From Candidatus Dormiibacterota bacterium (GTDB lineage: Bacteria > Chloroflexota > Dormibacteria > CF-121): a stretch of 38,759 bases of DNA. The stretch is from contig DASZZN010000027.1 of NCBI GenBank assembly GCA_035544955.1, forward strand, positions 1 to 38,759, in the 5' to 3' direction. Shown piece after piece: positions 9,804-35,934 of the stretch (positions are counted from its first letter, which is position 1; the number at the start of each line of letters is the position of its first letter). A model generated the notes under the pieces. The model worked only from the letters and a program-made list of their open reading frames with translations. It was not told where the DNA came from and did no database searches. Made by a program: the position numbers and the translations under genes.

Positions 9804-9879
9804 GCCGAGGTAGCTCAGTTGGTAGAGCACATGACTGAAAATCATGGTGTCGCCAGTTCGATTCTGGCCCTCGGCACCA
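9804..9879 (+). tRNA. tRNA-Phe (anticodon GAA), CCA encoded
   Basis: The acceptor stem GCCGAGG pairs with CCTCGGC, discriminator A at 9876, with CCA at 9877-9879. The anticodon stem CATGA/TCATG encloses CTGAAAA (anticodon GAA). The T-arm is GCCAG-TTCGATT-CTGGC. A -10-like TAGAAT (9788-9793) lies 10 nt upstream. Its 3' half is duplicated at 11428-11470. Confidence 0.96.
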
Positions 9880-9897
9880 AACCCCGCCGGCGGAAGC

Positions 9898-10395
9898 CTA
9901 CGAACCCGGCGGAATGCCCTGAATGTCGATCGAACTCCCGGAGAACAGGTCGTAGTAGGGCACCCCGAGAGATCGGGCCAGAGCCTTGAGCTGCGTGGTA
10001 CCAAACGGTTTCGCGGACACCCTGAAGGCGGTGTGGCCGTCTTTGCGAACGAAGTCACATGTGTTGCCCCCGCGGCCCGCGAAGCTGATTTGCAGCCGGT
10101 CCAACTGATCGCGCCGGCAGGACGCTCCCCAGGGTAAGCGACTGACTCCTACCCGTTCCGAGTCGACCCACAGGTGCCAGCGGTACAACCCGTAGATGAA
10201 CAACGCGCCGATGCCCAACCAGACGAAGACCGGCACGAGGCTGCGGCCGCTCAGCATGAGCCCAGCCCCGAAGAGCGTGACGGTGCCGATAATCACGCCG
10301 AAGGCGATCAGCGTCGACTGCTGGGGGCGGATCACCAGGCGCTGACTGCCGTCCGCCGGGAGCTGGTCGAGGTTTGCCGCCATCACTACTGGCAA
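9898..10395 (-). CDS. Membrane protein with PH-like C-terminal domain, function unknown
   Basis: This 165-residue protein has two adjacent membrane helices (about 29-48, STLIAFGVIIGTVTLFGAGLML, and 53-70, LVPVFVWLGIGALFIYGLY). A soluble region of about 95 residues follows (WHLWVDSERVGVSRLPWG... DQLDRLQISFAGRG...), whose layout resembles bacterial PH-domain membrane proteins; that match is tentative. The start may be at 10395 or at the Met four codons later. The stop lies 18 nt from the tRNA-Phe 3' end, inside the segment bounded by tRNA-Phe and its 3' copy. Confidence 0.65.
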   Translation of the reverse strand: MPVVMAANLDQLPADGSQRLVIRPQQSTLIAFGVIIGTVTLFGAGLMLSGRSLVPVFVWLGIGALFIYGLYRWHLWVDSERVGVSRLPWGASCRRDQLDRLQISFAGRGGNTCDFVRKDGHTAFRVSAKPFGTTQLKALARSLGVPYYDLFSGSSIDIQGIPPGS

Positions 10396-10477
10396 AACGT
10401 CGCCATATCCGGGCTCCGTGCAGGCTTTACTTTTCTCGCGTGTCTCGTTACGCGGTCGCGTTCGGGCGCGGGCAGGG

Positions 10478-11368
10478 TTACGACGAGATGGTTGGGGCCT
10501 TGATGGTTACCGCGCCGCTGAAGTCGTGGAGGTTGATCACGGCGTGGGCCGTCAGATGCGCCATTGAGCCGGCAGGGATTTGCACGGATTGGCCATTTGA
10601 GCCCGTCCCGTTGGCGAAGGCCGCGGATAGCGCATGCAGATCGGCAGTCACGTCGGCGTCATAGCTGACCCGGCGAATCAGGTGATCGGAGGTGCCTGTC
10701 CAGACATCGGCCGTCAGCTGCGCGTTCTGCAAGATCCCCTCGAGCGCCGCCGCCACTTGCGGATCTTTTGACGATCCTCCGGTCGTGACCTGCGCCAGGA
10801 GTTTGACAAGGTCGGGAACGATCCGGTAATGATCGACGGCGACGCCATTGATCGTCGAGGGTTGATCGTTGATTTCGGACAGCGATTTGGCGGTGTCGAT
10901 CAGGGCCTGATACGAGAGCCCGGTCTTCGACTTCGCCGAGTTTGCCTGGTGGGGCTGCCCGAGAGCCTTCCATTTGCCCGTCATCGGGTCCTTGATATAG
11001 AGCCGGCCGCCGACCGCGATCACTTCCGTGTCCACCGTCAGGCCGCCGAGTTTTGCCTCGACCGTCGCGTCCAGCTGGTCCGGCTTCTTCACCGCCCCGC
11101 TGATGGTGAGATCGACGGTCATGTTGCTGCTCAGAAAGCTGCCTTGCGAGCCGGCCTTGGCCCGCAACTGGTCGACAAGCGACGCGGGCAGGGTCAGGGT
11201 CACGGTCGCTTTCGCGTCGAAGCGAACCGAGGTCAGCTTCCCCATCGCCTTGCCGGTCGCGGCCAGGCTCTGCTGGGGGGTGTCGGTCTTGGACGCGGCC
11301 GGGGCGTTTAGGCCGGCACACGCCGAGAGCAATCCGATCGCCAGGACGGCAACTACGGTTCGCCTCAT
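10478..11368 (-). CDS. Lipoprotein of the LppX/LprAFG type
   Basis: This 296-residue protein has a lipoprotein signal, MRRTVVAVLAIGLLSAC, with lipobox cysteine C17. The mature part alternates strands and helices in the pattern of mycobacterial LprG/LppX carriers: SVRFDAKATVTLTLP, then TVDLTISGAVKKPDQLDATVEAKLGG, IAVGGRLYIKDPMTGKWKALG, and a late VWTGTSDHLIRRVSYDADV. Such proteins bind lipids in the envelope; the assignment is by pattern only. The frame extends upstream to 11605, but that extension is antisense to the tRNA remnant and msrB, so 11368 was chosen as the start. Confidence 0.8.
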   Translation of the reverse strand: MRRTVVAVLAIGLLSACAGLNAPAASKTDTPQQSLAATGKAMGKLTSVRFDAKATVTLTLPASLVDQLRAKAGSQGSFLSSNMTVDLTISGAVKKPDQLDATVEAKLGGLTVDTEVIAVGGRLYIKDPMTGKWKALGQPHQANSAKSKTGLSYQALIDTAKSLSEINDQPSTINGVAVDHYRIVPDLVKLLAQVTTGGSSKDPQVAAALEGILQNAQLTADVWTGTSDHLIRRVSYDADVTADLHALSAAFANGTGSNGQSVQIPAGSMAHLTAHAVINLHDFSGAVTIKAPTISS

Positions 11369-11427
11369 GTTCCTCACGATAATGCACCGCCGGGGCTGGA
11401 AATGTGACACGCGCGCTCTGGATCCCC

Positions 11428-11470
11428 GAAAATCTGGTGTCGCCAGTTCGATTCTGGCCCCCGGCGCCAA
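11428..11470 (+). repeat. Displaced 3' half of tRNA-Phe
   Basis: Positions 11435-11460 are identical (26 nt) to 9845-9870 of tRNA-Phe, and GAAAATC before it matches the anticodon-loop side. The next 10 nt (CCGGCGCCAA) match the acceptor and CCA end with two changes. There is no 5' half, so it cannot be a working tRNA. The arrangement is that of a displaced attachment-site copy left by integration into the tRNA. Confidence 0.88.
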
Positions 11471-11488
11471 ACTGGGTAGACTCCAGAC

Positions 11489-11896
11489 GTGAGCACCAAG
11501 ATCTCGAAAACCGAAGAAGAGTGGCGCGCGGAGCTGACCCCGGAGCAGTACGACATCCTGCGCCGGAAGGGAACGGAGCGGCCGTTCACCGGAAAGTACG
11601 TCCATACCAAGGCGGACGGCACCTACACCTGTGCCGCTTGCGGCGCCGAGCTGTTCAGCTCAAAAACGAAGTTCGAGTCAGGCACCGGCTGGCCGAGCTT
11701 CTGGGAGCCGGCCAATACGGAGAATGTCGAGCTACGGTCCGACAACAGCTTCTTCATGCGCCGGACCGAGGTCCTTTGCCGAAACTGCGGTTCGCACCTC
11801 GGGCACGTGTTCGATGATGGACCTCAGCCGACGGGCCAGCGCTTCTGCATCAACTCGGCATCGCTCGACCTGAAGCCGAACGAGCCGGCAAGCTAG
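11489..11896 (+). CDS. msrB: Peptide-methionine (R)-S-oxide reductase
   Basis: This 135-residue enzyme reduces methionine-R-sulfoxide in oxidised proteins. The structural zinc cysteines are C48 and C51 (CAAC) and C97 and C100 (CRNC); the catalytic cysteine is C120 in GQRFCIN. The motif [11 protein letters not shown] is typical. The start is GTG, with a -10-like TAGACT (11477-11482) 6 nt upstream, implying an mRNA that starts at or near the start codon. The tRNA-Phe remnant ends 18 nt before the gene, so its promoter abuts the inserted segment. Confidence 0.96.
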
Positions 11897-26167: not shown

Positions 26168-26240
26168 GCGGGAGTAGCTCAGTTGGTAGAGCGCAACGTT
26201 GCCAACGTTGAGGTCGCGAGTTCGAGACTCGTCTCCCGCT
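26168..26240 (+). tRNA. tRNA-Gly (anticodon GCC)
   Basis: The acceptor stem GCGGGAG pairs with CTCCCGC (discriminator T). The anticodon stem CAACG/CGTTG encloses TTGCCAA (anticodon GCC). The T-arm is GCGAG-TTCGAGA-CTCGT. CCA is not encoded. Its last 23 nt (26218-26240) recur downstream at 29387, 30347 and 35912. Confidence 0.97.
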
Positions 26241-29383: not shown

Positions 29384-29410
29384 CGCGAGTTCGAGACTCG
29401 TCTCCCCGCT
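29384..29410 (+). repeat. tRNA-Gly 3'-end remnant 1
   Basis: It matches the last 26 nt of tRNA-Gly (26215-26240) with a single inserted C in the acceptor strand. The match continues past the tRNA end: the next 18 nt here agree with those after the tRNA at 16 of 18 positions (AATTG.T.AGCTTGAGCT). Confidence 0.9.
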
Positions 29411-30231: not shown

Positions 30232-30288
30232 TATCCGCTTTCCATTCCAGGTTGTGCCCTGCGTGGGTTCGAGTCCACTCGCACCCGC
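30232..30288 (+). repeat. Degenerate tRNA-like 3' fragment of another tRNA type
   Basis: The T-loop-like GGGTTCGAGTCC is followed by CGCACCCGCA, an acceptor end different from tRNA-Gly(GCC). The upstream part (ATCCGCTTTCCATTCCAGG) parallels that before remnant 2. The T stem lacks one base, so it is not a working tRNA. Confidence 0.55.
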
Positions 30289-30346
30289 AGCAAACCTAGG
30301 CCGCCTGGGCGAGGATCCGCTTTCCTCTCCAGCTTGCGTCCTTCAC

Positions 30347-30369
30347 GAGTCCGAGACTCGTCTCCCGCT
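30347..30369 (+). repeat. tRNA-Gly 3'-end remnant 2
   Basis: The 23 nt match 26218-26240 with one change (T to C in the T-loop). It is preceded by the hairpin CTGG..GAGGA/TCCTC.CCAG and by AGCTTGCGTCCT, both shared with remnant 1. Confidence 0.9.
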
Positions 30370-35911: not shown

Positions 35912-35934
35912 GAGTTCGAGACTCGTCTCCCGCT
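35912..35934 (+). repeat. tRNA-Gly 3'-end copy (distal boundary)
   Basis: A perfect 23-nt copy of 26218-26240, 9.69 kb from the tRNA. It abuts the promoter of the UvrA-like gene. It is the best candidate for the original tRNA end displaced by integration. Confidence 0.93.

Follow-up and report, generated by a model that had tools for sequence, protein, structure and literature searches.

In the genome analyzed here, part of a tRNA-Phe gene is found a second time shortly before msrB, and two genes lie between the intact tRNA and this second copy. The locus thus raises the question of how the copy arose and whether the enclosed genes were inserted between tRNA-Phe and msrB. The window referred to below is the complete stretch of DNA that was analyzed, with a length of 38,759 nt.

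The repeated tRNA-Phe end and the genes it encloses

An intact tRNA-Phe gene (anticodon GAA) with an encoded CCA end is located at positions 9804-9879 on the plus strand (ARAGORN; RF00005, 75 bits) and is 100% identical to the tRNA-Phe of G017, a representative of another genus. The sequence TGGTGTCGCCAGTTCGATTCTGGCCC, which corresponds to nt 42-67 of tRNA-Phe, is present at 9845-9870 and again at 11435-11460. This exact recurrence of 26 nt had been reported in the preliminary description of the locus and was confirmed; it is the sole 26-mer with two occurrences in the 38.8-kb window. The near match through the CCA end, which had also been reported, was reproduced as an ungapped match of 36 out of 38 positions (9845-9882 versus 11435-11472), but the start given there lies 7 nt too late and the block begins in the anticodon loop. 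If one deleted base is allowed, the copy starts at 11428 and covers nt 34-76 of tRNA-Phe, from the anticodon to CCA, with 93% identity (E 7.6e-11, whole genome). The two putative attachment-site repeats are accordingly the segment 9837-9879 within the intact gene and the displaced 3' end at 11428-11469, both on the plus strand; the latter marks the far end of the islet. It is oriented as the tRNA-Phe gene, its deleted base falls in the anticodon arm, and it was the sole displaced piece of tRNA-Phe in a search of the whole genome. Upstream of the copy, 8 of 33 positions match the 5' half of tRNA-Phe, and the best local alignment resembles those of shuffled sequences (P 0.91). Because the preceding sequence is unlike the tRNA 5' half, the copy can be regarded as a fragment of the 3' end that breaks off abruptly at the anticodon.

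The islet extends over about 1.55-1.6 kb from tRNA-Phe to the fragment and comprises the two envelope genes described earlier, a membrane protein and a lipoprotein, which are both encoded on the minus strand. The small membrane protein (about 9898-10395, about 162-165 aa) has two hydrophobic stretches and no confident family assignment, as no significant match was obtained in Pfam or NCBIfam, and is 75% identical to the product of a gene adjoining tRNA-Phe in G017. The lipoprotein gene (10478-11368) encodes 296 aa with the lipobox LLSAC. Its product is distantly like the SCO4651 lipoprotein family (NF053532, E 1.5e-6, which is below the family cut-off) and shows identities of 85% to a protein of G010 and of 55-59% to proteins of G011, G013, G014, and G015. 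The predicted structures of both proteins are of low confidence (pLDDT 42 and 46), and a profile search of solved structures yielded nothing credible. The longest frame of the lipoprotein gene (window 10478-11605, minus strand) continues upstream across the tRNA fragment, which it reads in antisense (GARIELATPDF...), and automatic calling could set the start of this gene too early. Inverted repeats at the ends of the islet were not significant (P 0.14), and the islet ends showed no resemblance to the ends of the tRNA-Cys blocks described below.

Beyond the fragment follows msrB (11489-11896, plus strand; SelR domain, 2e-53), the conserved right-hand neighbor of the slot, which starts 19 nt behind the CCA of the fragment. 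As to the promoter of its own that had been attributed to msrB, TAGACT at 11477-11482 on the plus strand is the probable -10 box. In most of the genus msrB is preceded by CTGGGTA(g/c/a)ACTC, and the TA(g/c/a)ACT box, about 7 nt from the start codon, is likewise conserved in most of the genus. The spacing between box and start codon suggests that the msrB mRNA is probably leaderless.

The slot between tRNA-Phe and msrB in related genomes

A relative in which tRNA-Phe directly precedes msrB had been proposed as a check of the insertion and does exist. In G008, another species of the genus, the CCA of the tRNA is followed by 19 nt and then by the GTG of msrB, and this spacing and register are the same as between fragment and msrB here. 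A query of 117 nt spanning the G008 junction was compared with 110 genomes of the class, and full-length matches were obtained only in G008 itself and in the window, where it aligns to 11437-11553 at 86%. In the other nine matching genomes the alignment starts at query position 26 or further on and covers mainly the promoter and gene of msrB. Since the junction matches from end to end, the fragment is collinear with it and therefore occupies the position expected for the end of a tRNA-Phe immediately adjacent to msrB. The unoccupied junction is known from this one genome, a draft assembly which is 87% complete and 6% contaminated.

It is conceivable that the fragment is a functional site, either part of the msrB promoter or a regulatory RNA-like element, which would be compatible with an integration scar. 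Its identity of 93% despite the deep split from the sister species and its location at the place expected for a -35 region belonging to the TAGACT box are in line with such a role; however, other species retain msrB and the -10 box without the fragment, and one base has been lost in the anticodon arm, and we consider a function of this kind improbable.

In nine genomes tRNA-Phe and msrB were found on one contig, with distances ranging from 19 nt to 3.2 kb. The gap comprises 19 nt in G008, 261 nt in G001, 1512 nt in G004, 1609 nt in the genome analyzed here and about 1700 nt in G002, and is larger in G017 (2230 nt), G012 (2333 nt), G014 (3219 nt), and G011 (3230 nt). The slots of G006, G007, G010, G013, and G015 were seen in part because msrB was not detected or is on a different contig from the tRNA. 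A gene encoding a lipase maturation factor occupies the slot in G002, G004, G007, G011, G013, and G014, with an additional gene of the erythromycin esterase family in G011 and G014. The slot of G017 contains a sigma-factor gene and the membrane protein, those of G010 and G006 a LacI regulator and a glycoside-hydrolase gene, and that of G012 a large gene of the same cluster. No gene was called within the 261 nt of G001. G015 is the only genome with an integrase at this position, namely an N-terminal domain directly behind tRNA-Phe in a tyrosine-integrase reading frame (PF02899, 1e-6); this gene is cut off by the end of its contig. As judged from the assemblies compared, the slot is a hotspot that takes up different genes in almost every related species. 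The patchy distribution presumed for the two islet genes was also found, as among the slots of relatives the membrane protein occurs only in G017 and the lipoprotein only in G010; an invariable presence of both genes, which had been named as evidence against an insertion, does not apply to relatives with other contents or to G008 with none. In this comparison, no further occupied slot had a tRNA fragment adjoining msrB. In the sister species G010 and G012 decayed traces of a tRNA end precede msrB in the right place, but these are not significant (P 0.06 and 0.11, respectively).

The origin of the cargo was examined by comparison with the backbone. The membrane-protein segment, from the tRNA to position 10404, is 84% identical to DNA of G017. 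At fourfold sites the gene agrees with its G017 counterpart in 71%, compared with about 44% for the backbone, a figure pooled by hand over five backbone genes, and this difference points to transfer of the segment rather than common descent, although the fourfold sites may be under constraint. Of the relatives, G010 alone has the lipoprotein gene next to msrB; the fourfold agreement is 76% versus about 61% for the backbone, and more distant relatives of the gene (55-59%) sit elsewhere in their four genomes. Because the two genes differ in their distribution, the cargo of the islet is probably composite and not one intact element. In a five-gene tree, the closest relatives of this genome are G010 and G012 (support 95), followed by G008 (97) and G001 (100). 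The fragment, with its 93% identity, looks younger than the split from G010, and the lipoprotein is nonetheless common to G010; the history of the locus therefore involves more than one simple insertion.

These comparisons make it very probable that the 1.55-kb stretch is an integrase-less remnant islet derived from site-specific integration into the anticodon loop of tRNA-Phe, at a hotspot of the additive-island type. The ancestral tRNA-Phe would have abutted msrB and would have recombined in its anticodon loop with an element that brought its own copy of the tRNA 3' end. The copy of the element would have rebuilt the tRNA, the gene at 9804-9879 being the regenerated target, and the original 3' end would have been displaced to the far side, 19 nt before msrB. 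The slot would then have been filled with different genes lineage by lineage. From these data we infer the recombinase class and the crossover point. An insertion here is presumed, but an excision in G008, which requires the same repeat, would account for the data equally well. Since the islet contains no integrase, the enzyme would either have been lost or have acted in trans.

Displaced tRNA ends and integrases elsewhere in the genome and family

Displaced tRNA ends had been regarded as a recurrent feature of this genome, and besides the tRNA-Gly ends in the window such ends were found at tRNA-Cys and tRNA-Ser(gga). The tRNA-Gly gene (26168-26240) is accompanied by displaced 3' ends at 29384-29406, 30343-30369, and 35912-35934. 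Downstream of the tRNA-Ser(gga) gene, its 3' end recurs twice as identical copies of 64 nt (L188, G000:C49; 9109-9172 and 10902-10965). Four tRNA-Cys 3' ends occur in tandem (L189, G000:C33; 8091-8143, 6719-6765, 2897-2945, and 1226-1250) and further ones on a second and third contig (L191, 3633-3681 and 4798-4851; L192, 3838-3893). These ends bound blocks of 1.3-3.8 kb, mostly with one large gene each. Like the tRNA-Phe copy, the tRNA-Cys and tRNA-Ser copies run from the anticodon arm to CCA; for most displaced copies the start lies within the anticodon arm or close to it, whereas the Gly copies start later. The first tRNA-Ser(gga) island and the tRNA-Gly island each contain a sigma-factor gene, and the two genes share 76% identity. 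The concatenated tRNA search scored 40 of 107 candidates, so that the displaced ends listed here represent a minimum. The Gly copies at 29384 and 30343 are preceded by a common stretch resembling GGATCCGCTTTCCTCTCCAGCTTGCGTCC, and a similar stretch precedes a further tRNA-like 3' end near 30255-30290.

Neither an integrase nor a remnant of one was detected inside the islet, and a search of the genome with PF00589 yielded three matches, none of them on this contig. Neighborhoods of recombinase matches were judged within flanks of about 1.5 kb, and for at least seven of the non-Xer tyrosine-recombinase matches in the family these flanks contain a tRNA or the displaced 3' end of one. Recombinase matches of G015 are located at tRNA-Lys, tRNA-Gly, and tRNA-Cys and beside a tRNA-Gln fragment, and one of G008 at tRNA-Ser. 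The flanks of the remaining matches contain no tRNA or displaced end; these include the top-scoring group of most genomes, which is probably XerC/D. A second very small islet is present in G007 (L294), where an integrase C-terminal piece lies between tRNA-Thr and its displaced 3' end (786-830 and 1806-1880, about 1 kb apart). In the genome analyzed here, a 58-nt 3' end of tRNA-Ser(tga) was found near a tyrosine-recombinase frame with an internal stop (L304, G000:C38; 9023-9080).

Homologous recombination or gene turnover in a permissive slot, with the fragment carried along or made by chance and no site-specific recombinase involved, would agree with an islet without integrase, with its mosaic contents, each half of which is common to a different relative, and with the lack of tRNA fragments next to msrB in the rest of the occupied slots that were compared. 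However, edges from anticodon to CCA and their recurrence at several tRNAs fit tRNA-targeting integrases, and the family possesses such integrases at tRNA genes, tRNA-Phe included; we attribute little probability to turnover of this kind. An ordinary duplication, by which a second tRNA-Phe once stood before msrB and lost its 5' half by decay, is consistent with the remaining 3' half being oriented as the intact gene but highly improbable given the sharp stop of the copy at the anticodon, before which no trace of the 5' half is left (P 0.91), the start of the tRNA-Cys, tRNA-Ser, and other copies in the same region (nt 19-34), and the single intact tRNA of G008, which itself occupies the place of the fragment. 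The reading of the preliminary description, a displaced-tRNA pattern that recurs in this genome, is supported by the G008 junction, the patchy genes, and the variable slot, with the refinement that the islet lacks an integrase and is probably composite.

A broader and rather unlikely possibility is that tRNA 3' ends serve as recombination sites of a cassette system, in which integrase-less cassettes of 1-2 genes would be added at tRNA-Phe, Cys, Ser, and Gly and mobilized in trans by a small number of tRNA-specific integrases located elsewhere. Such a system would be somewhat like an integron, with tRNA ends replacing attC. The best hint is given by the tandem tRNA-Cys blocks because of their common conserved end sequence, which was found in three Cys blocks and the C5 block and lies above background in most pairwise comparisons.

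Relation to known tRNA-targeted islands

When tyrosine integrases insert DNA at tRNA genes, they leave this very signature, a reconstituted tRNA plus a displaced piece that usually stems from the 3' end, and the anticodon loop is one recognized crossover subsite (PMC4383910). The locus shares with Islander islands the intact tRNA, the fragment at the opposite end, which has the same orientation and includes the tRNA end, and the putative crossover in the anticodon loop. The Islander definition requires an integrase and a size of 2-200 kb (PMC4383910), and the islet fails this stricter definition because it has no integrase and, with 1.6 kb, is smaller than 2 kb. Tycheposons are likewise tRNA-anchored blocks of cargo but have been described with a size of 4-200 kb and a tyrosine recombinase (PMC10872708), and the islet has neither this size nor a tyrosine recombinase of its own.

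Additive flexible islands, as described for Alteromonas (PMC4119200) and Methylophilaceae (PMC10872708), arise where cassettes of genes insert at a conserved tRNA. The similarities comprise the tRNA target, variable cassettes, tRNA 3'-end repeats, and sizes down to a few hundred bases. The slot described here is one location in which gene content varies or is absent between relatives, and in this genome a tRNA 3'-end repeat borders the cassette. Additive islands were compared mostly between strains or close species, whereas here the contents differ between most species examined; moreover, the slot ends at msrB. The islet behaves as a tRNA-targeted island and can be grouped with the additive flexible islands. 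As a case of a process that is already known, it is new and well supported, and it comes from a bacterial group that has been little studied.

Comparison with the unoccupied site of a related species shows that the slot next to tRNA-Phe has acquired different genes repeatedly within the genus. Displaced tRNA ends can be used to trace the history of insertions in fragmented genomes, and a standard island finder demanding an integrase and 2 kb would miss islets of this type. More interesting than the single islet is the presence of many small, mostly integrase-less blocks at tRNA genes (Cys, Ser, Gly, and Phe) in one genome. If this genome-wide pattern holds, it would provide a tractable route to study the spread of small cassettes without integrases.
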